Positions 1-40,664 of a stretch of 64,000 nt of DNA are shown piece after piece (the first letter of the stretch is position 1; every line of letters starts with the position of its first letter). Origin of the DNA: Chlamydiota bacterium (GTDB lineage: Bacteria > Auribacterota > Tritonobacteria > UBA1439); the NCBI GenBank assembly GCA_012729785.1, contig JAAYCL010000022.1, positions 22,567 through 86,566 on the forward strand, written 5' to 3'. The notes beneath the pieces are model-generated. The model saw nothing but the letters and a program-made list of their open reading frames with translations. It was not told the origin of the DNA and did no database searches. Made by a program: the position numbers and the translations under genes.

Positions 1-1119
1 CTCGTTGACCTCCTCCTCGGTCCAGAAGTACTCCTGGAGACTCTGCACCCACTCGAAGTAGGAGACGGTGACGCCGCCCGCGTTGGCGAGGATGTCGGGC
101 ACCACCGTGATGCCGCGGCGCAGGAGGACCGCCTCGCCCGCGGAGCTGATCGGGGCGTTGGCCGCCTCGACGATGATTTTGGCGCGCACCCGCGCGGCGT
201 TCTCCTCGGTGATCTGCCCCCCCAGTGCGGCGGGGATGAGGATGTCGCACGGCGTCTCGAGAAGCTGGGCGTTGGTGAGCGCCTTCCCCCCCGCGAACCC
301 CTTCACCGTCCCGGTCCTCTCCGCGTGCAGGAGCAGCGCCGGGACGTCGAGCCCGGCCGGGGCGTGCACGCCGCCGTGCACGTCGCTCACTGCGACGATC
401 TTCCCGCCGTGTTCGTGGATGATCCGGACGGAGTGCGCGCCGACGTTCCCGAACCCCTGAATCGCGAACGAGCAGCGGCTGAGCTCCGTTCCGGCATGGA
501 GGCAGACCTGCTCGGTCACGTAGAAGACCCCGCGCGCCGTCGCCTCGATCCGCCCCTTGGAGCCCCCGAGGCAGATCGGCTTGCCCGTGACCACGCCCGG
601 GACCGAGTGGCCGTGGTTCATGCTGAAGGTGTCCATGATCCAGCTCATCACCTTCGGGTTCGTGTTCATGTCGGGGGCGGGGATATCCCTGTCGGGGCCG
701 ATGATGATCGCGATCTCGCTCGTGTAGCGCCGCGTCAGGTGCTCGAGCTCACGCTCGGACATCTTCGACGGGTCGCAGACCACGCCGCCCTTCGAGCCGC
801 CGTACGGGATGTTGACGAGCGCGCACTTCCAGGTCATCAGCATCGCCAGCGCCGTGATCTCGTCCAGGTCTACCTGCGGGTGGTAGCGGATACCGCCCTT
901 GCAGGGCCCCCGCTCCATGCTGTGCTGGACACGGTAGCCGGTGAAGACCTTGGTGTGGCCGTCGTCCATCCGGATCGGCACGGAGACGATGAGGGTTCGC
1001 TGCGGCTTCTTCAGCTTCTCGTGGATGTCCGGGTCGAGCCCGAGCTTCCCGGCGGCGTTCTCGAGCTGTTTGAGCGCCAACTCGAGCGGCCCCTGTTCGT
1101 CCTGAAGCGGCTTGTTCAT
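1..1119 (-). CDS. gdhA: Glu/Leu/Phe/Val dehydrogenase (glutamate dehydrogenase), C-terminus cut by window edge
   Basis: Oxidative deamination of glutamate to 2-oxoglutarate (or the reverse, assimilating ammonia), cytosolic. The 373 visible residues begin MNKPLQDEQGPLELALKQLE and carry the family's substrate-binding motif PCKGGIRYHP, the catalytic-lysine region YGGSKGGVVCDP, the PAPDMNT motif and a Rossmann segment IQGFGNVGAH, followed by AALGGQITEENA and ILANAGGVTVSYFEW, all typical of the roughly 420-residue hexameric GDH. The start ATG at 1119 has an AGAGAGGG Shine-Dalgarno about 8 nt upstream. The reading frame is still open at base 1, so about 45 residues are missing. It lies 27 bp downstream of the serA-like gene on the same strand and is probably the last gene of a DUF1015-serA-gdhA operon. 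Cofactor preference (NAD or NADP) cannot be read from this. Confidence 0.93.
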   Translation of the reverse strand, partial: MNKPLQDEQGPLELALKQLENAAGKLGLDPDIHEKLKKPQRTLIVSVPIRMDDGHTKVFTGYRVQHSMERGPCKGGIRYHPQVDLDEITALAMLMTWKCALVNIPYGGSKGGVVCDPSKMSERELEHLTRRYTSEIAIIIGPDRDIPAPDMNTNPKVMSWIMDTFSMNHGHSVPGVVTGKPICLGGSKGRIEATARGVFYVTEQVCLHAGTELSRCSFAIQGFGNVGAHSVRIIHEHGGKIVAVSDVHGGVHAPAGLDVPALLLHAERTGTVKGFAGGKALTNAQLLETPCDILIPAALGGQITEENAARVRAKIIVEAANAPISSAGEAVLLRRGITVVPDILANAGGVTVSYFEWVQSLQEYFWTEEEVNE

Positions 1120-1146
1120 CGTGCGCGCCCTCTCTTTGCAGGCGTC

Positions 1147-2067
1147 TTACGCCGTCAGCTTCTCGACCACGAGCGCCGCGATCTCGGTGCCCACGCGGAA
1201 CTGGCCCTCGGCGGTGGAGGCGCCGATGTGCGGGGTGGCGACCACGTTCTCGAGCTTCAGGAGCGGGTTGTCGGGCGCGGGGGGCTCGACCTCGAAGACG
1301 TCGAGGGCGGCGCCGCGCACCTTGCCGCTCTGCAGCGCCTCGTAGAGGGCCGCTTCGTCCACGACCCCTCCGCGCGCGCAGTTGATGATGATGACGCCCT
1401 TCTTCATCATGGCGAACTGCTTCTCCCCGATCAGGTGCGTCGATTCCTTCGTCTTGGGGAGGTGCAGGGAGATGATGTCGGACTCTCTCAAGGTGGTCTC
1501 GAGATCGCAGGTGTCCATCAGGGGCGCCTGGACGAGAGGGGCGCAGCGGCTGGTCCGGGCGCAGGTGGTCACCCGCATCCCGAGGCCGAGGGCCCGGACG
1601 GCCATCTCCTGCCCGATGCGGCCGATGCCGATGATGCCCAGCCGCTTGCCGTAGAGCTCCGTCCCCGCGAATTTCTTCTTCTCCCACTTGCCCGCCTTGA
1701 CCGAGGCGTCGGCGGCGGGGATCTTCCGGGCGACGGCGAAGATCAGCCCGATCGCGAGCTCGGCGACGGAGACGGAGGATGCGCGGGGGGTGTTGACCAC
1801 GGGGATGCCCCGTTCCTTGGCGCAGGCGACGTCGATGTTGTCGAGGCCGACGCCGCCGCGGGCGATGACCTGCAGCTTCCCGCCCGCCTCGATGACCTTG
1901 CGCGTGATCTTGGTCGCGCTCCGGACGATGACCGCGTGGTAGTCGCCGATGCATCCGACGAGATCGTCCTCCTTGAGGCCGGTCTTCTCGGTCACCTCGA
2001 GACCCGCGCCCTTGAGGATCGCCACCGCCTCCTTCGCCACCGGATCACAGATCAGCACCTTCTTCAT
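1147..2067 (-). CDS. serA: D-3-phosphoglycerate dehydrogenase (short form without ACT domain)
   Basis: NAD-dependent 2-hydroxyacid dehydrogenase, most likely the first enzyme of serine synthesis (3-phosphoglycerate to 3-phosphohydroxypyruvate). The protein (306 aa from MKKVLICDP) has the nucleotide-binding motif GIIGIGRIGQEMA and the catalytic Arg-Glu-His set in NCARGGVVDEAAL, DVFEVEPP and ATPHIGASTAEGQ. Start 2067 is chosen because GGGAGG lies about 8 nt upstream; an in-frame ATG at 2085 would add six residues but has no better site. The regulatory ACT/ASB domains of long SerA enzymes are absent, so serine feedback through them is not expected. serC is divergent next door, and pairing of serC, serA and DUF1015 is common, which favours SerA over another hydroxyacid dehydrogenase. 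Confidence 0.9.
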   Translation of the reverse strand: MKKVLICDPVAKEAVAILKGAGLEVTEKTGLKEDDLVGCIGDYHAVIVRSATKITRKVIEAGGKLQVIARGGVGLDNIDVACAKERGIPVVNTPRASSVSVAELAIGLIFAVARKIPAADASVKAGKWEKKKFAGTELYGKRLGIIGIGRIGQEMAVRALGLGMRVTTCARTSRCAPLVQAPLMDTCDLETTLRESDIISLHLPKTKESTHLIGEKQFAMMKKGVIIINCARGGVVDEAALYEALQSGKVRGAALDVFEVEPPAPDNPLLKLENVVATPHIGASTAEGQFRVGTEIAALVVEKLTA

Positions 2068-2095
2068 CCCCGTTCCTCCCCTCATGCAGGCCGCG

Positions 2096-3409
2096 TCATC
2101 GCGGCAGGTTCAACGCGTTCAGCACCAGCCCGGTGTACAGCTTCGGATAGAAATCGGTCGACTTCTGCGGCATCCGCTCGCCGTTCCCGGCGACACGGGC
2201 GACCTCCTCGGCCCGCGTCGGATTGAGAAAGACCGCCGCCTGGAATGCGCCGGTGTCCACCGCCCGCACGGCGGCGTCGGCGTACCGCTCGTAGGAGACG
2301 TGCGCCTCCTCCTCCAGTTTCCGCTTGTCGATGCCGAGGAGCGTTTCGAGGACGGCGTGGATGATGCTCACGTCGAGCCGCTTCCAGTCCGCCGAGGCGT
2401 CCGCCGGCATCGACGCGGCGACGGCCGCCTCGTCGTTGAGGCGGAGAACGGTGAAGGTTTTGCCGAGGTAGAGTCCGAAGCGGTGGTCGCCGGGGCGGTC
2501 GGTTTTCATCCCCGCAAGCAGTTCGTCAAGCCCGCCGCAGCGCTCGAGGGTGAAGAGGCGCGCGAGCCGTGCGGGGAAGGCCGCGAGCTCGTCGGGGGGG
2601 AGGTGGTGCAGCAGGCGGTGCGTGGGGAGGACGGTGAGCCCCGGGTCCTCCATCGCGACGAACGCCATGATGTGGGAGTCGAAATTCTCGTTGCCGGGCA
2701 GGCACCGCACCCCCTTCTCCCGCATCTCGCGCCGGTAGTTCAGCGCCGTCTCGTAGCGGTGGTGGCCGTCGGCGATAAAGAGCGACTTGGCCTCCATCAG
2801 CGACTGCACCTCGCGGTGCACCGCGGGATCGGTCACGACCCAGACCCGGTGGACCACCCCGTCGTCGTCGCGCGCCTCGACGTCGGGCGGGCCGCCGGTC
2901 TTCCGGGCGAGGGCGCCGGCGACCGCCCCCTCCGGGTCGGAGTAGAGCATGAAGATCAGGCCCGACTGCACCGCGGTCGCGCGCATCAGGTTGAGGCGGT
3001 CCGCCTTGGGCCCCGCGAGGGTGCGTTCGTGCGGCATCACGCCGCCCTTCTTGAACTCCTCCAGCCCGCCGAGGGCGATGAAGCCGCGCCGGGTCTTGAC
3101 GGGGCCGCCCGCGAACGAGTACTCCTGGGCGTAGACGTACAACGCTTCCCGCTCGTCGCGGACCAGGACGCGTTCCGCGACGCACCGGTCGAAGAAGGAG
3201 CGCGCACGGGTGTACTGGTTGTCGGCGGGCGTGTCCTGCGGCGTGGTGGCGCCTTTGGAGAAGCGCACGATATGGTGCGGATGCCGCCGGTAGTAGATCT
3301 CCTGCAGTTCCGGCGTGATCTTGTCGTACGGCTCCGCGAAGACGAGGCCGGTATCCGGGACCTTCTCCGGGTTGTAGCGGTATCCCCTGAACGGATAGAC
3401 AAACGCCAT
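2096..3409 (-). CDS. DUF1015 family protein
   Basis: Protein of 437 aa belonging by sequence to DUF1015 (HTH-like family often found beside serA/serC). Visible family hallmarks are the N-terminal PFRGYRYNPEKV, the VFAEPYDKI segment, the NQYTRARSFFDRCV block, the IADGHHRYETAL motif in the middle and the C-terminal ERMPQKSTDFYPKLYTGLVL. The conserved DGHHR and MPQKST motifs look like active-site material, but no biochemical role is established; a link to serine metabolism rests only on gene neighbourhood. Start 3409 is chosen over the longer frame to 3475 because GGGAGGG sits 5 to 6 nt upstream and the family begins near this residue. First gene of the minus-strand operon, 28 bp before serA, behind the promoter at 3447-3475. 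Confidence 0.88.
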   Translation of the reverse strand: MAFVYPFRGYRYNPEKVPDTGLVFAEPYDKITPELQEIYYRRHPHHIVRFSKGATTPQDTPADNQYTRARSFFDRCVAERVLVRDEREALYVYAQEYSFAGGPVKTRRGFIALGGLEEFKKGGVMPHERTLAGPKADRLNLMRATAVQSGLIFMLYSDPEGAVAGALARKTGGPPDVEARDDDGVVHRVWVVTDPAVHREVQSLMEAKSLFIADGHHRYETALNYRREMREKGVRCLPGNENFDSHIMAFVAMEDPGLTVLPTHRLLHHLPPDELAAFPARLARLFTLERCGGLDELLAGMKTDRPGDHRFGLYLGKTFTVLRLNDEAAVAASMPADASADWKRLDVSIIHAVLETLLGIDKRKLEEEAHVSYERYADAAVRAVDTGAFQAAVFLNPTRAEEVARVAGNGERMPQKSTDFYPKLYTGLVLNALNLPR

Positions 3410-3446
3410 CGCGACCCTCCCAGCAGATGGTGGTGACGAGGATTCT

Positions 3447-3475
3447 ATGATAGGCGGGCGGAGCCGGCGCGTCAA
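3447..3475 (-). promoter_or_regulatory. sigma-70-type promoter for DUF1015-serA-gdhA
   Basis: Read on the minus strand: TTGACG (3475-3470), a 17-nt spacer, then TATCAT (3452-3447). Both hexamers are one to two bases from consensus and the spacing is ideal. Transcription would start near 3440, giving a leader of about 30 nt before the ATG at 3409. It lies in the 176-bp gap between the divergent DUF1015 and serC starts. Confidence 0.7.
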
Positions 3476-3585
3476 CCGTATTCCCCGCCCCCCGGCAACT
3501 CCCGCTGGACGGGAGGGGGGCGCTCGTAGTAGTATAACGGCCGCACAGACAGGCGACGCGGTTGCGTCAGACAGGAGGCGGGGAT

Positions 3586-4671
3586 ATGGGAAAGCGGGTG
3601 TTCAACTTCTACGCGGGGCCGGCGACGCTCCCGCTCAAGGCGCTCAAGGCGGCCAGGAGCGAGCTTCTCGACTTCCGCGGGAGCGGGATGTCGGTCTGCG
3701 AGATCAGCCACCGGTCGAAGGATTTTCAGGCGGTTATCGACGAGGCGACGGCCCTCGTGAAGGAGCTGTACGCCGTCCCCGCCGGGTTCCACGTCCTCTG
3801 GCTCCACGGCGGCGCGTCGACGCAGTTCTTCCACATCCCGTGGAACCTCTCGCTCGAGGGGAAGCCGCTCTCCTACATCCACACCGGCGCGTGGGCGAAG
3901 GCGGCGATCAAGGAGGCGGGCTTTTTCGGCGAGGTGCAGATACCCGCCTCGTCCGAGGATGCGAACTTCAACTACATCCCGCGGGATTTCCGCATCGACC
4001 CCAACTCGTCGTACCTCCACATCACCTCCAACGAGACGATCGGCGGGATCGAGTGGTTCAGGTTCCCCGCCACGGGCCAGGTGCCGCTCGTGGTGGACGC
4101 CTCGTCGGACTTCCTGAGCCACCCGGTCGACTGGTCCTCGGTGGCGCTTCTCTACGCCGGCGCGCAGAAGAACCTCGGCCCCGCGGGCGTCGCGGTGGTG
4201 ATCGTCAGGGAGGATATGGTGGCGCGGGCCCGCGCGAAGAAGCTCCCCACGATGGTCTCCTACGGGACCCATGTGGACAAGGGGTCGATGCACAACACGC
4301 CCCCCTGCTTCGCCATCTACCTCTCGCTGCTGGCGCTGCGCGAGCTCAAGGAGAAGGGCGGGCTGCCGTACATCGAGAAGCTCAACAAGAGGAAGGCGAA
4401 CGCGCTCTACTCGATGATCGATCGATCGGGGGGGTTCTACCGCCCGTTCGCGCGCAAGGATTCCCGCTCGCGGATGAACGTGACCTTCCGCCTGCCGACC
4501 GCGGAACTCGAGGAGAAGTGCGCCGCCGAGGCGAAGGCGCGCGGCCTGATCGGGCTGAAGGGGCATCGGAGCGTGGGCGGGATGCGCGCCTCGATCTACA
4601 ACGCGATGCCGATGAAGGGGGTCAAGGCCCTGATCGCGTTCCTCGAGGAGTTCATGAAGGCCAACAGCTGA
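3586..4671 (+). CDS. serC: Phosphoserine aminotransferase
   Basis: Pyridoxal-phosphate enzyme converting 3-phosphohydroxypyruvate and glutamate to phosphoserine and 2-oxoglutarate. 361 aa, the normal length. Visible signatures: N-terminal VFNFYAGPATLPLKAL, GSGMSVCEISHRSKDF, the LHGGASTQF substrate/cofactor loop, the PLP-lysine region YAGAQKNLGPAGVAVV, and C-terminal GHRSVGGMRASIYNAMP. The start ATG at 3586 has AGGAGG (3573-3578) 7 nt upstream; an earlier in-frame start at 3562 would add an unconserved tail. Divergent from the DUF1015-serA operon, so the serine genes sit back to back. A TATAAC at 3533-3538 could be its -10 box but lacks a good -35. A GC stem-loop follows the stop. Confidence 0.96.
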   Translation: MGKRVFNFYAGPATLPLKALKAARSELLDFRGSGMSVCEISHRSKDFQAVIDEATALVKELYAVPAGFHVLWLHGGASTQFFHIPWNLSLEGKPLSYIHTGAWAKAAIKEAGFFGEVQIPASSEDANFNYIPRDFRIDPNSSYLHITSNETIGGIEWFRFPATGQVPLVVDASSDFLSHPVDWSSVALLYAGAQKNLGPAGVAVVIVREDMVARARAKKLPTMVSYGTHVDKGSMHNTPPCFAIYLSLLALRELKEKGGLPYIEKLNKRKANALYSMIDRSGGFYRPFARKDSRSRMNVTFRLPTAELEEKCAAEAKARGLIGLKGHRSVGGMRASIYNAMPMKGVKALIAFLEEFMKANS

Positions 4672-7327: not shown

Positions 7328-8835
7328 ACGGCCCCCCCCGCCGCCCCGGACCCGGCGCCCCGGCGCCCGCCCCACCCCCGGGCGCGGCCCCGGCCCCGCG
7401 CAGCGTCGGGCTGGCGACGAAGATCGGGCTGCTGTTCGCCCTCCTGATCATGGGCAAGGTCGCCTCGATGGCGAAACGGGGGCCGGTGGGGACGGAGGAG
7501 CTTCGGCTCCTCGGGATCGTCCTCGGCGAGATCCTCCTCCTGATCGTGGCCCTCGTCAACGTCAACTTCGTCTTCTACGTGCTGGTCTTTTACGTGCCGT
7601 TCAGCCAGATGCTCCCCGGCGACTACGGCACGGCGGTGAACATCACCAACGTGCTCCTCGTCATCATCGTCTTCGGGCTCTTCTTCAGGAGCATCCGCGA
7701 GGGGGGGCACTTCCTGGTGTCCACGGAGCTGGACCGGCTGATCGGCCTCCACCTGCTACTGACGTTCGTGGCCTTCTTCCGGGCGGCGCTCGCCGAGACG
7801 ATGGACTGGTTCCTCCTCGTGACGCTGATCAAACGGTTCATCACGCCGATCTTCCTCTACTATCTGGCGAGCTGGATCGTGCGGGACCGGCAACAGATCC
7901 AGGACTGCATCTACATCGTGATGTTGACGACGCTGATGGTGGCGTTCCTGGCCACCAAGGACACGCACACGCCGACCCACTTCTCCTGGGAGCGGCGCGA
8001 GGACGCGGGACTGTCGCAGGCGAACCTGCTGGCGGCGTTCTTCGTCTACTACATGTTCTACTACTTCGCCTTCTTCAGCCTCCACGCAAACCAGTTCAAA
8101 TACTGGCTGCTGCTGATATGCATCTACCCGTGCGCGCGGGGGATCATGCTGGCCTTCTCGCGGGGCGGCTACTTCGCCTTCGTCGCGGGGACGCTGTACA
8201 TATGCTGGCTCTACAAGAAGTGGCTCTTCGTGCTGACGGCCGTGGTGATGCTCATGCTGTGGCAGAAGCCGGGGCTCGTCTTGCCGCAGGCGGTCGTGGA
8301 GCGCATCGAGGGGACGACGGTGGAGTACGAGGCCGACTACGGGAAGTCGAAGGTGCGGTTCGAGTCCTCCTCGGCGGGGCGGATCGCGATCTACACGGCC
8401 GGCCTCAAGATGGTGATGCGCTATCCCCTCCTCGGGGTCGGGTACGGACAGTTCCCGGTGCGGGTCGGCGAGTACGACTCGTACGCGGCGGGCAGGGACG
8501 CGCACAACGCGTATCTGCTGATCGCCGCGGAGATGGGGATCCCGGCGCTGCTGGTGTACCTGATGATCGTCTTCCGGCTGCTGCGGTACTCGCTGGCCAT
8601 CTACCGATACGGCACCGATACGATGTACCGGGCGGTCGGGATGGGGTTCGCGACCGGCGTGATCGGATTTCTGGTGGCGAACTTCTTCGGCTGCCGGTTC
8701 AACACCACCGAGACGGTCGGCGTCTGGTGGATCCTCGCCGCGATGATCGTCTTGATCAGGAAGCAGTCGATGATGACGCCCGGCGCCGTGCCCCCGCCTC
8801 CCGTGGCCGTGCGCCCCGCGGGGGGCACGCCGTGA
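7324..8835 (+). CDS. O-antigen ligase / Wzy-like membrane protein
   Basis: Integral membrane protein of 503 aa. After a cytosolic Pro/Ala/Gly-rich N-terminus (residues 1-26) there are about ten to twelve hydrophobic segments. Around residues 340-400 it has a large hydrophilic loop with the Wzy_C/O-antigen-ligase pattern: RIAIYTAGLKMVMRYPLLGVGYGQF followed by DAHNAYLLIAAEMGIPALLVY, where the GxGxxxF and H-N-x-Y-L elements are diagnostic. Such proteins either polymerise undecaprenyl-linked glycan repeats or ligate glycan to a carrier in the periplasm; the two roles cannot be told apart by sequence. It opens the run of glycan genes, and a methyltransferase overlaps its end by GTGA. Confidence 0.85.
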   Translation: MNGPPRRPGPGAPAPAPPPGAAPAPRSVGLATKIGLLFALLIMGKVASMAKRGPVGTEELRLLGIVLGEILLLIVALVNVNFVFYVLVFYVPFSQMLPGDYGTAVNITNVLLVIIVFGLFFRSIREGGHFLVSTELDRLIGLHLLLTFVAFFRAALAETMDWFLLVTLIKRFITPIFLYYLASWIVRDRQQIQDCIYIVMLTTLMVAFLATKDTHTPTHFSWERREDAGLSQANLLAAFFVYYMFYYFAFFSLHANQFKYWLLLICIYPCARGIMLAFSRGGYFAFVAGTLYICWLYKKWLFVLTAVVMLMLWQKPGLVLPQAVVERIEGTTVEYEADYGKSKVRFESSSAGRIAIYTAGLKMVMRYPLLGVGYGQFPVRVGEYDSYAAGRDAHNAYLLIAAEMGIPALLVYLMIVFRLLRYSLAIYRYGTDTMYRAVGMGFATGVIGFLVANFFGCRFNTTETVGVWWILAAMIVLIRKQSMMTPGAVPPPPVAVRPAGGTP

Positions 8836-31016: not shown

Positions 31017-31499
31017 GGGGACGCCTCCGCGCCCACGGTTCGAGATCCTCCAGGCGCCTGTCGCGCGGGATTGGCGTGCACCGGACGGACGGACAGGGCG
31101 AATGAACCGTCGGGGGAAAGATGTGCGGCCTCCGCCGCGATGCCGTAAGGGCGAGGCTGTTAGTACAGCCCTTCGGATACCACGTGGGCATCCTTTGCGG
31201 CGTTCCACGTCCGGCCCGGAGACCGGTCACTTCCGGCCGCGTCGGGATTCCCGTCTGTGCGTATTGGGCTGTTAACCGTGCCCTGTACGAACATGACAGA
31301 GACCGCACACCTGATGGTAGGGATTTCACTCCCGCCTGTCAAATCTTTTCGCGATTTTTTGCGGGCCTCTTGTGCGAGAGAGAAGGTGCGCATTGTACGC
31401 CTGCGCGCCGTGCGACGTGTGCCCGCGACCATTTCGCCAACCCTCGCGAATCTCCCCTCCAAGCTTCCCGCGCCGCCGGCCCGCAGCCCCGCCTTTTCG
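31017..31499. other. Gene-poor stretch, nothing recognised
   Basis: No frame here has a convincing start, ribosome site or protein-like composition. The part around 31257-31400 is less GC-rich than its surroundings and may be old decayed coding sequence or an untranslated region. Confidence 0.5.
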
Positions 31500-31670
31500 C
31501 GCGCATCCGCGACGCGGCCCGGCGGCTCGCGCGCATCCACGCCGTCTCGCACGCATCCACGCCGTCTTGCGCGCATCCGCGCAGGTTCGCACGCATATCC
31601 GCCGCGGATAGGCGGCTCGCACGCACCCACGCCGTCTCGCACGCATCCGCGCCGCTGGCCGGCGGCTCGC
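31500..31670. repeat. Array of seven short repeats in 10-bp steps
   Basis: The motif CRCGCATCCRCGCCGTCTCG recurs, with its first base at about 31500, 31530, 31550, 31570, 31590, 31620 and 31640, ending near 31670. The steps are 30, 20, 20, 20, 30, 20 and 30 bp, all multiples of ten; the 30-bp units add an extra segment such as GGCCGGCGGC. It is non-coding by appearance. Confidence 0.65.
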
Positions 31671-31807
31671 GCGCGCCGGGCGGGGATGTAGCAGGGATGC
31701 TCGCATGAAGGGGATTTTTTGAAAATAGTTTGAAACTTTTCCCCTTTTCCCGCGACTAGTATGGTGAGCGGGGGCGCAGGGCTCCCGCCTAACGGGGAGG
31801 GGCGGTG

Positions 31808-32026: not shown

Positions 32027-32194
32027 ACCGCCCGGATCGTCCGCGGCCGACAGGCGGAATGCGCGCGGGGTGCGGGACGGATCCTCGGCGAGCCGACCGT
32101 CGAGCCTGCACGGATGCAGGAGGTTCGGGGTGCGGGGATGCGCGCCGTGCCGTTCCCGAAAGGGGCGGCTGTCAGGGGAGGGGCGGGCGGGGCT

Positions 32195-32526
32195 GAGTGC
32201 GGTCGCTCCCTGCATCCGCCCGACATCCCGCGTCGTGTCGGGGAAGGGAGGACGCCGCCCCGCGCAAGGGTGGGGCTGAGTGCGACCGCTCCCTGCATCC
32301 GCCAGACATCCCGCGTCGTGTCGGGGAGGGGAGGACGCCGCCCCGCGCAAGGGCGGTGCTGAGTGCGGTCGCTCCCTGCATCCGCCAGATATCCTGCGTC
32401 GTGTCGGGGAGGGGAGGGCGCCGCCCCGGGCAAGGGCGGGGCTGAGTGCGGTCGCTCCCTGCATCCGCCCGACATCCCGCGTCGTATCGGGGAGGGGAGG
32501 ACGCCGCCCCGCGGCGGGGGCGGGGC
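32195..32526. repeat. Four tandem copies of an 83-bp repeat
   Basis: Units begin (GAGTGCG...) at 32195, 32278, 32361 and 32444, exactly 83 bp apart, with only a few substitutions between copies; the last copy diverges at its 3' end. 83 is not a multiple of three, so each copy would be read in a different frame, arguing against coding. Each unit includes GCTCCCTGCATCCGCC and GGACGCCGCCCCGCGCAAGG. The array ends about 60 bp before the tRNA-Phe fragment. Confidence 0.85.
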
Positions 32527-32584
32527 GGCGAAATCCTATGGCATCGTCTCCCTTCCTGTAGTATAGCGTGCGCGTTCCGGGAGT

Positions 32585-32625
32585 GCCGGGGTAGCTCAGT
32601 TGGCAGAGCGCTGCACTGAAAATGC
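32585..32625 (+). pseudogene. tRNA-Phe 5' fragment (41 nt, broken in the anticodon stem)
   Basis: Bases 32585-32625 match positions 1-41 of the complete tRNA-Phe at 36993, with only two differences (D-loop C/T and position 26 G/A). The acceptor 5' strand, D arm and anticodon loop with GAA are intact, then homology stops after the TGC of the 3' anticodon strand and AT-richer unrelated sequence follows. It cannot fold as a tRNA. It keeps an upstream TAGTAT/TATAGC element (32559-32567). Confidence 0.9.
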
Positions 32626-32804
32626 CATCCGACCATTTCCCATAACACCCGCCAAACAAAGCAATTACGTTCCAGCCCAACAAGTTATATCCCAAAGTTA
32701 GATAGCCATAGATGTCACTAACAACCACGTTGGGGATATGGAATGGTCAAAATTTGGTCACAAATCCCGGATGCGGTTTTCCTCAAAATCCCCCCCCGGG
32801 GGGA

Positions 32805-32832
32805 TTGACAGCCAGCGGGAGAGGAGTACATT
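32805..32832 (+). promoter_or_regulatory. sigma-70-type promoter for the first propeller gene
   Basis: TTGACA (32805-32810), a 16-nt spacer and TACATT (32827-32832). The -35 is perfect and the -10 has four of six consensus bases. The leader to the GTG at 32973 would be about 135 nt. Confidence 0.6.
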
Positions 32833-32972
32833 GATTCGCGGAGGGGAGGTATCCCCTGTGAAGATGGGTTGTCAAAGCGAACCTGGCGCAGACTTCAGGC
32901 GCGTCATTGAAAAGGTGCGCCGTTGTCTTTTCCTGGCGGCATCTCTCGCGAATATGCCGAAAGGAGGCAGTC

Positions 32973-34535
32973 GTGAATAAACTCTCCTTCTGTCTGACGC
33001 TTGCCCTCGTTGCATCCCTTGTCGCTGGCTCCCCCACACACGCCGAACTCGCCGACACCCCGTGGCCGATGTTCCGGCACGATTTGCAGCACACGGGGCG
33101 GAGCGAGTACACGGGGCCGTCAAATCCAGAACTCGCGTGGAGTTATGAAACCGGCTTTTATATGCACAGCTCCTCGCCTGCGCTCGGGAGTGAGGGGCGG
33201 GTGCATTTCGGCTCTCGGGATAACAGGCTCTATACCATCGCCTCGGACGGAGCGCTATCGTGGAGTTATGAAACCGGCTATCGGGTGACCTCCTCGCCCG
33301 CGCTCGGGACTGACGGGCGGGTGTATGTCGGCTCTAATGATAACATGCTCTATGCCATCGCCTCCGACGGAGCGCTGTCGTGGACTTATGTAACCGGCTG
33401 GTATGTGGGCTCCTCGCCCGCGCTCGGGAGTGACGGGCGGGTGTATGTCGGCTCAGAAGATCAAAGGCTCTATGCCATCGCCTCCGACGGAGCGCTGTCG
33501 TGGAGTTATAAAACCGGCGCTTGGGTGCTCTCCTCGCCTGCGCTCGGGAGTGACGGGCTGGTGTATGTCGGCTCTTATGATAACAAGCTCTATGCCATCG
33601 CCCCCGACGGAGCGTTGGAGTGGAGTTATGAAACCAACGGGTATGTGTACTCCTCTCCCGCGCTCGGGAGTGACGGGCGGGTGTATTTCGGCTCTCATGA
33701 TTACAGGATTTATGCCATCGCCTCCGACAGAGCGCTGGAGTGGAGTTATGCAACCGGCTATAATGTGGCACACTCTTCGCCTGCGCTCGGGAGTGACGGG
33801 CAGGTGTATGTCGGCTCTTATGATAACAGGCTCTATGCCGTCGCCTCCGACGGAGCGCTGTCGTGGAGTTATGAAACCGTCGGTAATGTGTACTCCTCGC
33901 CTGCGCTCGGGAGTGACGGGCGGGTGTATGTCGGCTCTTTGGATAACAGTCTCTATGCCATCGCCTCGGACGGATCGCTGTCGTGGAGTTATGTTACTGG
34001 CGGCTCGTTCTACCCCTCTTCGCCCGCGCTCGGGAGTGACGGGCGGGTGTATGTCGGCTCTGCTGATAACCGCCTCTATTGCATCAAACAGGTGCCCACC
34101 GAGACGCCGACGATCACCCCGACCTCCGCGCCCACGAAGACGCCGACCACCACGCCCACGCCCCCGATCGACCTGACGGCGGACAAGACGGAGTACGGGA
34201 CGACGGGCGCCATCTCCGTCACGGCGGACGTGTGGCCCCTGACGGTACCGTGCTACCCGTTCGTGCGCATCCTGATGGCCGACGGCTCGACGCTGTACTA
34301 CCAGTCCGGCGTTGGGTTCACGGCCTCGCCGGTGCCGTACCTCGGCTTCGAGGCGGGGACCATCGTGACAACCGAGCCCATCCGGGACTACCTGGTTCTC
34401 TCGGCGAGCTTCTCGGGGATAGCCACAGGAACCTACTACCTCGAAGGCGGAGCGGTGGACATGACCAAGACCGTCTCCGCCGACAACCTCATCTACTTCG
34501 GCGCGGTTGACCGTGAGACGCTGAAGGTGAAGTAG
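32973..34535 (+). CDS. Secreted PQQ-like beta-propeller repeat protein (paralogue A)
   Basis: 520 aa. Signal peptide at residues 1-24 (MNKLSFCLTLALVASLVAG..THA). The N-terminal motif TPWPMFRHDLQHTGRSEYTGP is the usual opening of PQQ-type propeller proteins. Eight units of about 40 aa follow (residues 53-370), each like SSPALGSDGRVYVGSYDNRLYAIASDGALSWSYETG, predicting one eight-bladed propeller. A Thr/Pro linker (about 373-397) leads to a C-terminal beta domain (PIDLTADKTEYGTT...DRETLKVK, ends at the stop with no sorting signal visible). Start GTG 32973 has AAGGAGG 5 nt upstream. The repeats are 120 nt and nearly identical in DNA. Probably extracellular; ligand unknown; catalysis not shown. 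Confidence 0.88.
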   Translation: MNKLSFCLTLALVASLVAGSPTHAELADTPWPMFRHDLQHTGRSEYTGPSNPELAWSYETGFYMHSSSPALGSEGRVHFGSRDNRLYTIASDGALSWSYETGYRVTSSPALGTDGRVYVGSNDNMLYAIASDGALSWTYVTGWYVGSSPALGSDGRVYVGSEDQRLYAIASDGALSWSYKTGAWVLSSPALGSDGLVYVGSYDNKLYAIAPDGALEWSYETNGYVYSSPALGSDGRVYFGSHDYRIYAIASDRALEWSYATGYNVAHSSPALGSDGQVYVGSYDNRLYAVASDGALSWSYETVGNVYSSPALGSDGRVYVGSLDNSLYAIASDGSLSWSYVTGGSFYPSSPALGSDGRVYVGSADNRLYCIKQVPTETPTITPTSAPTKTPTTTPTPPIDLTADKTEYGTTGAISVTADVWPLTVPCYPFVRILMADGSTLYYQSGVGFTASPVPYLGFEAGTIVTTEPIRDYLVLSASFSGIATGTYYLEGGAVDMTKTVSADNLIYFGAVDRETLKVK

Positions 34536-34558
34536 GTTGCCGCATACATACCACACAC

Positions 34559-34603
34559 GCCCCGCTTCCGGCGCCCGTCGGGAGCGGGGCTTCTCCTTGC
34601 TTT
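34559..34603 (+). terminator. Intrinsic terminator after propeller gene A
   Basis: Hairpin GCCCCGCTTCCGGCG / CGTCGGGAGCGGGGC (34559-34590) followed by a pyrimidine-rich T tract (TTCTCCTTGCTTT). The same hairpin follows propeller gene B. Confidence 0.75.
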
Positions 34604-34606
34604 CAG

Positions 34607-35087
34607 TTTTCCCTAGAAGGCTTCCTGCAGTGCTGACGCTGACCCCGCATTCTCCTTACTCCCACCATGCAGGCAAGCAGCGACAGCCCCAATGGATCGC
34701 GCCCGATCTCGTTGCATCGCCCCGTCTATGCTCGGCGGCGTTTGCAGCCGGTGGACAGACACTATGTGGACACCGCGCCTCCTTTCCGAACCCACAAGCG
34801 TTTGCTGATAACAGACCTTCAGACATCTGGTCGAAACCTGGAGGAACAGGTCACTCAGGAGCGGATTAATCTTGTTGAATGATCCTGGCACGATCTCTCT
34901 ACAATCTTTTTACATTTCCGTGACACTCCGCGCGCGGCCCGGTGGTCTACTATCAGTGGGACGATGGAGGGGTGAGGACGGACGGGAGATCCTTTAGGGA
35001 TACGGCGCGGCGCGAAGCGGGGGGACGCCGGATACGGCTGCGACGCCCCGGGCCTCCGCAGAGGAGGGCGCGCGAAAGGAGGGCGTC
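34607..35087. other. Spacer between the two propeller genes
   Basis: About 480 bp. The plus frame ending at 34882 (DLQTSGRNLEEQVTQERINLVE region) and an overlapping minus frame of 92 codons have mildly protein-like composition but no recognisable family or ribosome site; either could be a remnant of a displaced gene. A TACTAT at 34948-34953 resembles a -10 box but lacks a properly spaced -35. Confidence 0.4.
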
Positions 35088-35297
35088 ATGAGCGCCGCCG
35101 AGAGGTTTTTCCGGTACGCCGTTCTTTTCGTCGCCGGGGGGCGCGGCGGGCCGAGGCGGTCTTCAGGGAGCGCGCGGCATGGAGGAGGGCTGGGGAGGCC
35201 CCGCCCGGGCCCGCGGAGGCGCACCTTTTTGTGTTTACCCCCCAAGTCTTGCATTTACATAGGCAATACGCCGTACCATCCAAAAAGGAGGTTCTGA
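35088..35297 (+). CDS. Small ORF (69 aa) directly upstream of propeller gene B
   Basis: ATG at 35088 has a very strong ribosome site (AAAGGAGGG, 4 nt spacing). Its stop, TGATG at 35295-35299, overlaps the start of propeller gene B, which would couple their translation. The first 17 residues (MSAAERFFRYAVLFVAG) look like a real protein start; the remainder is Arg/Gly/Pro rich. In another frame the same DNA reads more like protein (AEAVFRERAAWRRAGEAPP), suggesting a frameshifted remnant of an older gene cut by the arrival of the propeller cassette. Either a leader ORF or a broken gene. Confidence 0.4.
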   Translation: MSAAERFFRYAVLFVAGGRGGPRRSSGSARHGGGLGRPRPGPRRRTFLCLPPKSCIYIGNTPYHPKRRF

Positions 35298-36850
35298 TGA
35301 AATACCTCTCTATGTGCCTGATGCTCGCCCTCGTTGCATCCCTTGTCGCCGGTTCCCCCGCACACGCCGAACTCGCCGACACCCCGTGGCCGATGTTCAT
35401 GCACGACGCGCGGCACACGGGGCAGAGCGAATACGCGGGACCGTCAAATCCCGAATTCGCGTGGAGTTATGCAACCGGCTATTATGTGTTCTCCTCGCCT
35501 GCGCTCGGGAGTGACGGGCGGGCGTATGTCGGTTCAGCAGATAACAGGCTCTATGCCATCGCCCCCGGCGGAGCGCTGTCGTGGAGTTATGAAACCGGCT
35601 CTTGGGTGGACTCCTCGCCTGCGCTCGGGAGTGACGGACGGGTGCATGTCGGCTCTTATGATAACAGGCTCTATGCCATCGCCTCGAACGGAGCGCTGTC
35701 GTGGAGTTATGAAACCGGCAGGTGGGTGCAACCCTCGCCTGCGCTCGGGAGTGACGGGCGGGTGCATGTCGGCTCTTATGATAACAGGCTCTATGCCATC
35801 GCCCCCGACGGAGCGCTGTCGTGGAGTTATGAAACCGTCGGTAATGTGCGCTCCTTTCCCGCGCTCGGGAGTGACGGGCGGGTGTATGTCGGCTCTGAGG
35901 ATAACAGGCTCTATGCCATCGCCCCCGACGGTGCGCTGGAGTGGAGTTATGAAACCAGCGGTAATGTACGCTCCTCGCCTGCGCTCGGGAGTGACGGGCG
36001 GGTGCATGTCGGCTCTTATGATTACAGGCTCTATGCCATCGCCTCCAACGGAGCGCTGTCGTGGAGTTATGAAACCGGCGACGTTGTGCGCCCCTCGCCC
36101 GCGCTCAGGAGTGACGGGCGGGTGCATGTCGGCTCTTTTGATAACAGGCTCTATGCCATCGCCTCCGACGGTGCGCTGGAGTGGAGTTATGAAACCAGCG
36201 GTAATGTGCACTCCTCGCCTGCGCTCGGGAGTGACGGGCGGGTGCATGTCGGATCTCAGGATAACAGGCTCTATGCCATCGCCTCCGACGGAGCGCTGTC
36301 GTGGAGTTATGTAACCGGTTGGTATGTGGACTCCTCGCCTGCGCTCGGGAGTGACGGGCGGGTGTATGTCGGCTCTTATGATAACCGCCTCTATTGCATC
36401 AGACAGGCGCCCACCGAGACACCGACGATCACCCCGACCTCCACGCCCACGGAGACGCCGACCACCACGCCCACGCCCCCGATCGACCTGACTGCGGACA
36501 AGACGGAGTACGGGACGACTGACTCGATCTCCGTCACGGCGGACGTATGGCCCCTGACGGTGCCGTGCTACCCGTTCGTACGCATCCTGATGGCCGACGG
36601 CTCGACGCTCTACTACCAGTCCGGCGTCGGGTTCACGGCCTCGCCGGTGCCGTACCTCGGCTTCGAGGTGGGGACCATCGTGACGTCCGAGCCCATCCGG
36701 GACTACCTGGTTCTCTCGGCGAGCTTCTCGGGGATAGCCACAGGAACCTACTACCTCGAAGGCGGAGCGGTGGACATGACCAAAACCGTCTCCGCCGACA
36801 ACCTCATCTACTTCGGCACGGTTGATCGTGAGACGCTGACGGTGAAGTAG
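35297..36850 (+). CDS. Secreted PQQ-like beta-propeller repeat protein (paralogue B)
   Basis: 517 aa, a close paralogue of the protein at 32973 along its whole length. Signal peptide residues 1-24 (MKYLSMCLMLALVASLVAG..AHA), TPWPMFMHDARHTGQSEYAGP, then eight 40-aa units (120 nt each, first marker near 35501, last near 36341), a linker of PTETPTITPTSTPTETPTTT type and the same C-terminal beta domain ending DRETLTVK. Most differences between A and B sit at two or three variable residues per blade (the positions between YETG and SSPALG), which lie on the loop side of a propeller. Start ATG 35297 has AAAGGAGG 5 nt upstream. Likely a surface or secreted binding protein; ligand unknown. Confidence 0.88.
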   Translation: MKYLSMCLMLALVASLVAGSPAHAELADTPWPMFMHDARHTGQSEYAGPSNPEFAWSYATGYYVFSSPALGSDGRAYVGSADNRLYAIAPGGALSWSYETGSWVDSSPALGSDGRVHVGSYDNRLYAIASNGALSWSYETGRWVQPSPALGSDGRVHVGSYDNRLYAIAPDGALSWSYETVGNVRSFPALGSDGRVYVGSEDNRLYAIAPDGALEWSYETSGNVRSSPALGSDGRVHVGSYDYRLYAIASNGALSWSYETGDVVRPSPALRSDGRVHVGSFDNRLYAIASDGALEWSYETSGNVHSSPALGSDGRVHVGSQDNRLYAIASDGALSWSYVTGWYVDSSPALGSDGRVYVGSYDNRLYCIRQAPTETPTITPTSTPTETPTTTPTPPIDLTADKTEYGTTDSISVTADVWPLTVPCYPFVRILMADGSTLYYQSGVGFTASPVPYLGFEVGTIVTSEPIRDYLVLSASFSGIATGTYYLEGGAVDMTKTVSADNLIYFGTVDRETLTVK

Positions 36851-36873
36851 GGTGCCGCATACATACCACACAC

Positions 36874-36912
36874 GCCCCGCTTCCGGCGCCCGTCGGGAGC
36901 GGGGCTTCTTCT
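36874..36912 (+). terminator. Intrinsic terminator after propeller gene B
   Basis: Same hairpin as at 34559 (36874-36905), followed by TTCTTCTT. The bases from each stop codon through the hairpin are almost identical in the two copies, showing that gene and terminator were duplicated as one unit. Confidence 0.75.
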
Positions 36913-36939
36913 TGCCCGCATAATCACCCCCACGGGTGG

Positions 36940-36968
36940 TTGACCAATCCCCTCTGGGGTGATAACAT
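36940..36968 (+). promoter_or_regulatory. Promoter of tRNA-Phe with overlapping inverted repeat
   Basis: TTGACC (36940-36945), 17-nt spacer, TAACAT (36963-36968), 24 bp before the tRNA. A perfect 8-bp inverted repeat ATCACCCC (36923-36930) / GGGGTGAT (36956-36963) spans the -35 to the -10, a layout that could bind a regulator or form a hairpin. The promoter lies on the island side of the tRNA. Confidence 0.65.
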
Positions 36969-36992
36969 TAATAACTTCAGAATCAATATGAT

Positions 36993-37068
36993 GCCGGGGT
37001 AGCTCAGTTGGTAGAGCACTGCACTGAAAATGCAGGTGTCGTCAGTTCAATTCTGACCCCCGGCACCA
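36993..37068 (+). tRNA. tRNA-Phe (GAA), complete with encoded CCA
   Basis: 76 nt that fold by eye into the full cloverleaf: acceptor GCCGGGG / CCCCGGC, D arm GCTC-AGTTGGTA-GAGC, anticodon arm CTGCA-CTGAAAA-TGCAG with anticodon GAA, variable GTGTC, T arm GTCAG-TTCAATT-CTGAC, discriminator A and CCA. Its first 41 nt are repeated at 32585. It is the functional copy at the right edge of the island. Confidence 0.97.
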
Positions 37069-37496: not shown

Positions 37497-40400
37497 ATGT
37501 TCATGTGGCTGCTGAAGCACACGATAGGCACGAAAAACGACAGGGATATCCGCCGGCTCCGTCCCCTCGTGGCGCGCATCAACGAGATCGAAAAAGAATA
37601 CCAGTCGCTCTCCGACGACGAGCTCCGGGGCAAGACCGAGGAGTTCAGGAAGCGCCTCGCCGCGGGCGAGACGACGGACGATCTGCTGCCCGAGGCGTTC
37701 GCCGCGGTGAAGAACGTCTGCCGGCGTCTCCTCGGGAAGCGATGGGAGGTCTCGGGGCAGGAGATCGAGTGGGACATGGTCCCGTTCGACGTCCAGCTGA
37801 TAGGCGGCATCGTCCTCCACCAGGGCAAGATCGCCGAGATGGCGACCGGCGAGGGGAAGACGCTCGTGGCCACGATGCCCCTCTATCTCAACGCGCTCGC
37901 CGGGAAGAACGTCCACCTCGTGACCGTCAACGACTACCTCGCCCGCCGGGACTCGGAGTGGATGGGGCAGGTCTACGGCGCCCTCGGCCTCACCGTCGGC
38001 TGCATCCAGCACGACATGCCGCACGATGCCCGTCGCGAGGCGTACCGCAGGGATATCACCTACGGGACGAACAGCGAGTTCGGCTTCGACTACCTCCGCG
38101 ACAACGGGATGGCGATGAGTTTGGAGGAGCAGGTCCAGCGCGGGCACCATTTCGCCATCGTGGACGAGGTGGACTCGATCTTGATCGACGAGGCGCGCAC
38201 CCCCCTCATCATCTCGGGGCCCGCCGTGGTGTCGTCGCAGCAGTACGACGCGCTCAAGCCCCGCGCCGAGGCGCTGGTCCGGAAGCAGGGGGTTCTCTGC
38301 AACCGCCTCGTCAACGAGGCCAGGGAGGAGATCGGCGTTTCGGAGAAGGAGTACGAGGCGGCACGCAAGGTCTGGCTCGTGAGCAAGGGCGCTCCCAAGA
38401 ACCGCCAGCTGCTCAAGCTGATGGAGGAGCCCAAGGTCAGGAAGCTCGTGGACCGGGTCGACCTCGACTTCAGGGTCGACCTGAAGAAGGAGGAGCGATT
38501 CAAGTTCCTCGAGGAGCTCTACTACGAGATCGACGAGAAGGGCCACGACATCGACATCAAGGAGAAGGGCCACCAGGTCCTCGACCCGAGCGGGCAGCAG
38601 GCGTTCGTGATGCCCGACGTCATCACTGCCACGCAGATGATCGAGGAGGATGCGTCCCTCTCCCCCGAGGAGAAGGCCCGCAGGGTGGGCCGGCTGCAGC
38701 AGCGGCAGATCGAGATCGGCGAGAAGCTCCACAGCCTCACCCAGCTGATCCGCGCCTACGCCCTCTACGAGAAGGACGTCGAGTACGTGGTCCAGGACAA
38801 CCGCGTGATCATCGTGGACGAGTTCACGGGGCGCCTGATGCCGGGGCGGCGCTGGAGCGACGGTCTGCACCAGGCGGTCGAGGCGAAGGAGGGGGTGAAG
38901 GTCGAGCAGGAGACCCAGACCTTCGCCACGATCACCATCCAGAACTACTTCCGCCTCTACGCCAAGCTCGCCGGGATGACCGGCACCGCGGAGACCGAGG
39001 CGCCGGAGTTCCACCAGATCTACAAGCTCGACGTGGTCGTCGTCCCGACGAACGAGGCGGTGCGCCGCAAGGATTTTCACGACGTCATCTACAAGACGCG
39101 CCGCGAGAAGTACAACGCGGTCGTGGACGAGATCGAGAAGTTCAACAAGGCAGGACGGCCGGTGCTCGTGGGCACGGTGAGCGTCGACCAGTCCGAGGTG
39201 CTGAGCCGCCTCCTCCAGCGCCGCGGGATTCCGCACGCGGTTTTGAACGCCCGCTACCACGCGCAGGAGGCCGCGATCGTCTCGAAGGCGGGGCAGAGAG
39301 GCGCCGTGACGATCGCCACCAACATGGCCGGCCGCGGCACGGACATCAAGCTCGGGGAGGGGGTCGTGAACGCCGACTGCCAGCGTGCCGACGGGCGCTG
39401 GTGCTGCGTCCGATGCCCGAAAGAGCGGCAGTGCCGCCGCCTGCCGAAGCCGCTCTGCGGGAAGCCCGGCCGGATGAGCGCGTGCTGGGACGACCCGCCC
39501 TGCGGCCTCCACATCATCGGCACCGAGCGGCACGAGGCGCGCCGCATCGACCGCCAGCTCCGCGGCCGGAGCGCCCGGCAGGGGGACCCGGGCTCCTCGC
39601 GCTTCTACCTCTCGCTCGAGGACGACCTGATGCGGCTCTTCGGCTCCGAGCGGATCGCGCGGGTCATGGAGCGGATCGGGATGAAGGAGGGGGAGGAGCT
39701 CGTGCACCCGCTCCTCACCCGCTCGATCGAGACGGCCCAGAAGAGGGTCGAGCAGCGGAACTTCTCGATCAGGAAGCACACCCTCGAGTACGACGACGTG
39801 ATGAACAAGCAGCGGGAGGTCATCTACGACTTCCGCAATCAGGTGCTCGCCACCGAGGACCCCCGGACGATGGTGCGCGACCTGATCCGGGAGCTCGTCG
39901 AGCAGAAGGTCGCGTTCCATCTCCCCGCCGAGGCCGACCGGGACGCGTGGGGGATCGACGGGCTCGTGCACTGGCTGAACTTCACCTTCCCCGTCTTCCT
40001 GCAAGGCTCGGACCTCGACACGGACGGGGCGACCCCCGAGACGGTCGCGGCGGCGGTCCTGGCCCGCATCGACGAGGCCTTCTCGCGCAAGGCCGGCTTC
40101 GAGGACGAGGCGGCGCGCCGGATGGACCGCGAGGCGGGCGGGGAGGGAGGGGAGCCGGGGATGCAGCGGCTCTGCCGCCTCCTGATGCTCAGCGTCGTGG
40201 ACCGCCTCTGGAAGGAGCATCTGTACAACATGGACGCCCTGCGCGAGGGGATCTTCCTCAGGGCGTACGGCCAGAAGGATCCGCTCATCGAGTACAAGAA
40301 GGAGGGGTTCGAGATGTTCTCCGAGATGATGGGCGCGATCAACGAGGGGATCGTGGGCGGCATATTCCGCACCACCTTCTCCCCGCAGACGATCCGGCAG

Positions 40401-40664
40401 ATACTGGCGGAGCCCGCCCAGCAGACGTACGTCCATCGGGAGGTGAGCGCCTTCCAAATGGCGGCGGGGGAGGTCCCGGAGCCCGCGCTCGCCGGCGCCG
40501 CGGCGCACCACGAGCAGTCGTACGGGGCGCTCGGCGGCGATGACGCGCCGCGGCCGGCGCGGAAACCGTTCGTCAGGAAGGATCGGAAGGTGAGCCCCAA
40601 CGAGCCGTGTCCGTGCGGCAGCGGCAAGAAGCACAAGAAATGCTGCGGCGCGGGGAAGGCGTGA
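37497..40664 (+). CDS. secA: Preprotein translocase ATPase SecA with Cys-rich insertion
   Basis: Motor of the general secretion pathway, driving proteins through SecYEG. 1055 aa. It opens MFMWLLKHTIGTKNDRDIRRL and has Walker A MATGEGKT (about 116), LVTVNDYLARRDSEW, the DEVD box (223-226), VDEFTGRLMPGRRWSDGLHQA, GMTGTAETEA, TNMAGRGTDIKLG and GRSARQGDPGSSRFYLSLEDDLMRLF. Between TDIKLG and HIIGTERHEARRIDRQLRG lies an insertion (about residues 630-672) with eight Cys (636, 637, 640 and onward). The C-terminus ends in a SEC-C zinc motif, CPCGSGKKHKKCC (Cys1038, 1040, 1049, 1050). Start 37497 has AAAGGA 6 nt upstream; the frame from 37443 overlaps the promoter and is rejected. Confidence 0.97.
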   Translation: MFMWLLKHTIGTKNDRDIRRLRPLVARINEIEKEYQSLSDDELRGKTEEFRKRLAAGETTDDLLPEAFAAVKNVCRRLLGKRWEVSGQEIEWDMVPFDVQLIGGIVLHQGKIAEMATGEGKTLVATMPLYLNALAGKNVHLVTVNDYLARRDSEWMGQVYGALGLTVGCIQHDMPHDARREAYRRDITYGTNSEFGFDYLRDNGMAMSLEEQVQRGHHFAIVDEVDSILIDEARTPLIISGPAVVSSQQYDALKPRAEALVRKQGVLCNRLVNEAREEIGVSEKEYEAARKVWLVSKGAPKNRQLLKLMEEPKVRKLVDRVDLDFRVDLKKEERFKFLEELYYEIDEKGHDIDIKEKGHQVLDPSGQQAFVMPDVITATQMIEEDASLSPEEKARRVGRLQQRQIEIGEKLHSLTQLIRAYALYEKDVEYVVQDNRVIIVDEFTGRLMPGRRWSDGLHQAVEAKEGVKVEQETQTFATITIQNYFRLYAKLAGMTGTAETEAPEFHQIYKLDVVVVPTNEAVRRKDFHDVIYKTRREKYNAVVDEIEKFNKAGRPVLVGTVSVDQSEVLSRLLQRRGIPHAVLNARYHAQEAAIVSKAGQRGAVTIATNMAGRGTDIKLGEGVVNADCQRADGRWCCVRCPKERQCRRLPKPLCGKPGRMSACWDDPPCGLHIIGTERHEARRIDRQLRGRSARQGDPGSSRFYLSLEDDLMRLFGSERIARVMERIGMKEGEELVHPLLTRSIETAQKRVEQRNFSIRKHTLEYDDVMNKQREVIYDFRNQVLATEDPRTMVRDLIRELVEQKVAFHLPAEADRDAWGIDGLVHWLNFTFPVFLQGSDLDTDGATPETVAAAVLARIDEAFSRKAGFEDEAARRMDREAGGEGGEPGMQRLCRLLMLSVVDRLWKEHLYNMDALREGIFLRAYGQKDPLIEYKKEGFEMFSEMMGAINEGIVGGIFRTTFSPQTIRQILAEPAQQTYVHREVSAFQMAAGEVPEPALAGAAAHHEQSYGALGGDDAPRPARKPFVRKDRKVSPNEPCPCGSGKKHKKCCGAGKA

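Follow-up and report, generated by a model that had tools for sequence, protein, structure and literature searches.

Tyrosine integrases such as those of lambda and Tn916 use a core site with paired arm-type direct repeats on both sides. The integrase clade that we describe here has the same layout of a core site with direct-repeat arms on both sides, but its arms, as predicted from the sequence, are made of two units spaced 11 bp and are located about 115-130 bp from the anticodon of a tRNA gene.

Islands that rebuild the 5' half of a tRNA gene are already known, as a minority. Islander contains 159 tDNA islands that leave a 5' fragment out of 3919, with the other 3760 leaving a 3' fragment (PMC4383910). 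The integrases of the archaeal pTN3-like elements use the 5' half of a tRNA as attB, and the rebuilt tRNA is thereby cut off from its original promoter and placed behind the integrase promoter, an outcome described in a review as seldom seen in bacteria (PMC8371274, PMC5495485). The locus described here shares with them the 5' half as attB and a rebuilt tRNA without its original promoter. However, the pTN3-like integrases are archaeal and their gene is split by the integration, whereas in the relatives the gene of our clade remains undivided, with its end beside the tRNA.

We analysed a DNA stretch of 64,000 nucleotides (the window) from a bacterial draft genome of 2.59 Mb (45 contigs, 96.6% complete). 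Similar to the 5'-fragment islands of Islander, the window holds a complete tRNA and an upstream cognate 5' fragment in the same orientation, with the island between them and the breakpoint in the anticodon region. The length is 4408 bp, in comparison to the 2-200 kb used by Islander. However, the integrase filter of Islander would reject this island, as only a relic of about 21 codons is found in place of an integrase gene, and we therefore refer to it as a decayed island and not as a full member. In our assessment the 4.4 kb are very probably a decayed, immobile integrative island of the tRNA 5'-half type. The features are collected in Table 1.

Table 1. Features of the tRNA-Phe island in the window, of the tRNA-Ser island in the same genome and of sister islands elsewhere.
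Feature	Position	Strand	Basis or details
Native promoter-proximal flank of the original tRNA-Phe, TGTAGTATAG..CGTTCCGG	32554..32584	+	G003 flank alignment
attL, displaced tRNA-Phe 5' fragment (nt 1-41), core CTGCACTGAAAATGC at 32611-32625	32585..32625	+	E 2.3e-12
Left arm-type site TGGTCAAAATT-TGGTCACAA, 11-bp-spaced direct repeats, ~124 bp from anticodon	32744..32763	+	pattern search; match to six islands
Propeller unit 1, ORF 32973-34535 (520 aa, signal peptide, 7.8 x 40-aa repeats), terminator 34559-34590	32960..34600	+	Pfam PF13570 E 3e-69
Relic of integrase 3' end / right-arm motif, GACAGACACTATGTGGACAC, encodes DRHYVDTAPPFRTHKRLLITD	34754..34816	+	motif search, in-frame tail similarity
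Mosaic spacer; 34920-35230 = 72% GC, host-like; no tRNA remnant seen	34820..35283	.	composition, self-comparison
Propeller unit 2, ORF 35297-36850 (517 aa), terminator 36874-36905	35284..36915	+	self-BLAST, Pfam E 2e-72
Putative element-supplied tRNA-Phe promoter, TTGACC-17-TAACAT, TG before -10	36940..36968	+	promoter scan, consensus match only
Complete tRNA-Phe(GAA), attR, 5' half probably element-derived, 3' half original	36993..37068	+	ARAGORN; Rfam tRNA 74.2 bits; genome search
secA, conserved right neighbour of tRNA-Phe	37497..40664	+	tRNA-Phe upstream of secA in G002, G003, G004
tRNA-Ser(TGA) 5'-half island, same genome	C11 (L278) ~7888-8070; C12 (L129) 539-4272	reverse	
Sister island, tRNA-Met fragment 1-40			23.5 kb
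Sister island, tRNA-Gln fragment 1-38			4.3 kb; carbamoyltransferase, SxtJ-like protein, integrase
Sister island, tRNA-Ala fragment 1-38			7.6 kb
Sister island, tRNA-Arg fragment 1-44			11.0 kb

The split tRNA-Phe gene and its flanks

The initial annotation had placed a 4.4-kb island between a 5' fragment of tRNA-Phe and a complete tRNA-Phe, and this was confirmed with ARAGORN and a DNA search of the whole genome. The complete tRNA-Phe was the sole tRNA detected in the window, and the genome contained two tRNA-Phe matches only, the complete gene and the 41-nt fragment. The fragment was 95% identical to the complete gene, with the two reported mismatches at tRNA positions 20 and 26, and its last nucleotide, position 41, falls in the 3' strand of the anticodon stem, as had been described. 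The 15-bp core was likewise found exactly repeated at 32611 and 37019, where 0.02 matches with up to two mismatches were expected by chance.

In G003, where tRNA-Phe is uninterrupted, the flank of this gene aligned with the 31 bp before the left fragment (shuffle p 0.001) but did not match the 31 bp before the complete tRNA-Phe (p 0.70). The test was anchored on 31 bp, as the 80-bp flanks contain GC-rich runs that made a longer test uninformative. As the left flank is ancestral and the right flank is not, the left fragment is the 5' half that the gene had originally, still preceded by the old promoter flank. The complete tRNA-Phe is the original 3' half joined to a new 5' half. The flank comparison and the islands of the same plan found elsewhere support the earlier proposal that the incoming DNA brought a new 5' half together with a promoter. 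A sigma-70-like promoter with an extended -10 was predicted before the complete gene, inside an AT-rich stretch (46% GC).

The site itself is conserved. As in the window, tRNA-Phe is located upstream of secA in three genomes from other genera of the same family (G002, G003 and G004), where it is uninterrupted. No close relative with a true empty site was found when one was sought in the same genus, in the fragmented assembly G001, by means of secA and the TPR gene of the left flank: the secA contig of G001 ends 152 bp upstream, the contig with the TPR gene carries no tRNA, and G001 gave no tRNA-Phe match.

Four copies of a GC-rich 83-bp tandem repeat (32185-32526, 4.1 copies, 91% match) adjoin the ancestral tRNA-Phe promoter on its left side, in agreement with the repeats reported just left of the fragment. 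Additionally, a 6S/SsrS RNA gene was detected at 31127-31305 on the minus strand (Rfam RF00013, 37.5 bits, below the gathering score of 46.4). The homologous locus in G002 scored 42 bits, the gene is conserved beside the TPR gene in G001-G003, and 12 of its 56 predicted pairs showed compensatory changes. The ORF at 31121-31708, which overlaps the 6S gene, is probably spurious.

An integrase clade at tRNA genes

A tyrosine recombinase with an attachment site in tRNA-Phe had been suggested as something to look for, and in G002 and G004 we found the 3' end of such a gene upstream of tRNA-Phe, with its stop codon 7 bp before the tRNA. The 590-bp block that contains this 3' end and, at its own end, tRNA-Phe is 95% identical between these two different genera, whereas the neighbouring DNA is not. 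Based on a pattern search with the conserved 20-bp motif of the integrase 3' end, and on protein search, members of the same clade were found in the same orientation before tRNA-Met (G002:C79), tRNA-Thr (G004:C30) and tRNA-Ser (G004:C118), with a more distant member before tRNA-Ser in G010:C8. Viral contigs searched for relatives of the integrase gave only eight, all of them remote.

Among 80 loci from public genomes and those of this phylum, 29 clade integrases faced the 5' end of a tRNA and 33 faced the 3' end, a ratio that does not represent prevalence since the query came mostly from 5'-facing members. In most integrases of either orientation the distance from the catalytic tyrosine codon to the tRNA was the same, about 110-170 bp. 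When the 5' and 3' labels were placed on a quick maximum-likelihood tree, at least ten changes were needed, yet the labels were clustered, with 14 changes for the 5' group in comparison to 24 in shuffles. The 11-bp-spaced repeats were present on the integrase side in 23 of the 29 5'-facing cases (1.5 expected) and in 24 of the 33 3'-facing ones (2.1 expected from shuffles). We presume these repeats to be arm-type sites to which the integrase would bind.

Two further observations were made in these relatives. In G004:C92 (L146 677-864) the integrase-tail motif stands 98 bp before tRNA-Ser(TGA) with no integrase core upstream, a parallel decay relic. A shared tail like ACTACAGTGATTAGTGATTAGTGAAAAG directly follows the CCA of several tRNA genes with different identities in G002 and G004 (L126 2047-2107, L127 8060-8110, L128 1876-1935 and 7922-7980); it resembles a repeat associated with the 3' ends of tRNAs.

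Six islands of the clade elsewhere share one plan, namely a 5' tRNA fragment, cargo, integrase and complete tRNA, and all six have arms on both sides, about 115-130 bp from the anticodon; one of the six is the tRNA-Ser island of the genome analysed here. Among eight 5'-facing cases examined on longer contigs, a displaced 5' fragment in the same orientation was found upstream in four (G060, G062, G064 and G066), spanning nucleotides 1-38 to 1-44. In these four sister islands the left 11-bp-spaced direct repeats were located 116-132 bp after the anticodon and the right ones 113-130 bp before it, with the same type of arm sequence on both sides within each island. The tRNA-Gln island, which includes an integrase, indicates that very small islands of this type exist. 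In G010 a single match to the arm, 12 kb away from the integrase, predicted a 5' fragment of tRNA-Ser just before it, and a fragment of 43 nt (nt 1-43) was then found, ending 118 bp before the arm. PADLOC gave no informative defence matches for the cargo proteins of the sister islands.

Arms, integrase relic and cargo of the island

The tRNA-Phe fragment of 41 nt in the window falls in the range of the clade (38-44 nt). The arm pattern TGGWCANNNNNTGGWCAC had its sole exact match in the genome at the left end of the window island, where the left arm TGGTCAAAATTTGGTCACAA at +124 showed a repeat identity of 8/9 (shuffle p 0.007). Position and type of this arm are those of the arms in six complete or near-complete islands. 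A right arm, located about 110-133 bp before the anticodon in the clade, was absent from the last 140 bp before the complete tRNA-Phe, where the best repeat was 6/9 and out of place. A motif matching the right arm stands 2.2 kb away, at 34754.

At this same position the 20-bp integrase-tail motif occurs, once in the genome when up to three mismatches are allowed, and the reversed-pattern control gave zero matches in this genome. The relic reads in frame with the C-terminal tail of the clade for about 21 codons. The E value of a DNA profile run over the window was no better than 0.042, and outside the 20-bp motif the flanks could not be aligned. As a relic of this length cannot score strongly against a profile, its evidence consists of its uniqueness and its place. 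The initial annotation was right that the 4.4-kb island encodes no intact integrase, but it overlooked this remnant of the 3' end. Beside the 5' end of the tRNA, where the integrase gene ends in the clade, propeller unit 2 is found instead.

Two tandem elements were also considered, one with the TGGTCAC-like left arm and the other with the TGGACAC-like middle motif. This was dropped as unproven: mixed types occur within one G010 site, and no tRNA remnant, and with it no second tRNA fragment, was seen after 34816. To the right of the relic, at 34829-34855, there is a decayed-looking run TGGTCGAAACC-TGGAGGAACA-GGTCACTC, possibly a further arm-like repeat, which may be due to chance.

The two cargo units were 88.8% identical in self-BLAST, terminator included. 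Both encode proteins of the beta-propeller type with repeats of about 40 residues and signal-peptide-like N termini, and they are predicted to be secreted, which together with the Pfam matches bears out the description of two near-twin secreted propeller genes. Propeller-related matches numbered 32 in this genome alone, and the genomes of this family carry many such genes. The cargo belongs to a local gene family that is common throughout the genome and is neither exotic nor foreign. The other propeller loci fetched from the genome contained no complete tRNA-Phe, and the arm pattern (up to one mismatch) was limited to three genomic places (C22, C11 and C6), so that propellers are not a standard cargo.

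The history that we propose builds on what was directly observed, namely the layout of the att sites, the conservation of the tRNA-Phe site, the left arm, the habit of the clade and the genome-unique relic. An element with a tyrosine recombinase would have integrated by a crossover in the region of the anticodon loop of tRNA-Phe, and the gene on the right would have been rebuilt from the 5' half and promoter of the element and the 3' half of the chromosome. The integrase, of the clade that ends beside the rebuilt tRNA 5' end, probably bound the paired 11-bp-spaced repeats. Later all of it except the codons at 34754 would have been lost; the tRNA no longer has a right arm beside it. In the simplest course of events about 2 kb, comprising the host-like DNA of high GC content and the second propeller copy, may then have entered between the integrase tail and the tRNA promoter. 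Excision of the island should no longer be possible, and the sole tRNA-Phe of the cell would depend on the island promoter.

Alternative explanations and significance

The initial annotation had left the choice between a decayed island and a small passenger moved in trans. In the latter case the island never had an integrase of its own and was integrated by one encoded elsewhere, and the small size of the island and its lack of an intact integrase fit with this. A candidate is present in the same genome. Contig C12 carries an intact 353-aa clade integrase, a 725-aa cargo gene, the matching right arm TAGTCACAAAACGGTCAC and a complete tRNA-Ser(TGA), of which the first 39 nt are identical (39/39) to a fragment, nt 1-39 of tRNA-Ser(TGA), that precedes the arm pattern on contig C11. 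We infer that C11 and C12 are one tRNA-Ser island split over two contigs. Its left arm TAGTCACAATTTGGTCACAA agrees with that of the window in 17 of 20 bases, and it shares with the window island the 5' fragment, the anticodon breakpoint and the clade integrase. It differs in having the integrase and the right arm intact, and its cargo, between integrase and right arm, is the 725-aa protein, for which no Pfam or PADLOC match was obtained. However, the island of the C12 integrase is at tRNA-Ser, whereas the integrases of G002 and G004 are found at tRNA-Phe itself. The scrap of integrase tail inside the island and the missing right arm also speak against transfer in trans, and we consider it improbable; decay of a once complete island is better supported.

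A chance or homologous duplication would derive the fragment from a segmental duplication or from recombination between propeller copies, with no site-specific event, and could draw on the similarity of the two units and on the many related genes in the genome. However, the duplication does not include the tRNA fragment, according to self-comparison. The fragment also stops at the anticodon stem as in the six islands, with arm repeats at the expected distance, which makes this origin very unlikely. Least credible of all is a false contig join at the left fragment: propeller genes are often at contig ends in this 45-contig draft, but a misjoin is not expected to place the ancestral flank of the tRNA to one side of the junction and, to the other, an arm at the correct distance.

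In comparison to the known minority of 5'-half islands, three things seem to be additional here: a clade of bacterial integrases that often shows the 5' arrangement and flips between it and the 3' arrangement, the paired 11-bp repeat rule, and a decayed island that appears to have turned permanently into the promoter of the sole tRNA-Phe gene. The rule can be tested: the fragment measures 38-44 nt, the paired repeats with 11-bp spacing stand about 120 bp from the anticodon, and the integrase ends beside the tRNA. It detects islands despite a broken integrase or contig, as the predicted G010 fragment and the tRNA-Ser island located in the same genome indicate.

More broadly, a widespread bacterial clade may be indifferent to tRNA polarity, with the near-symmetric anticodon stem-loop permitting repeated flips between the 3' and 5' halves and with decay fixing an essential tRNA under a mobile promoter for good, as in the window; we regard the chances of this proposal as evenly balanced. 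If it is true, rebuilding of the 3' half would keep the host promoter and rebuilding of the 5' half would impose that of the element. Integration into the 5' half swaps the promoter of an essential tRNA. In this genome the apparently sole tRNA-Phe seems to be run by the remnant of an immobile element, a selfish element that would have become indispensable.
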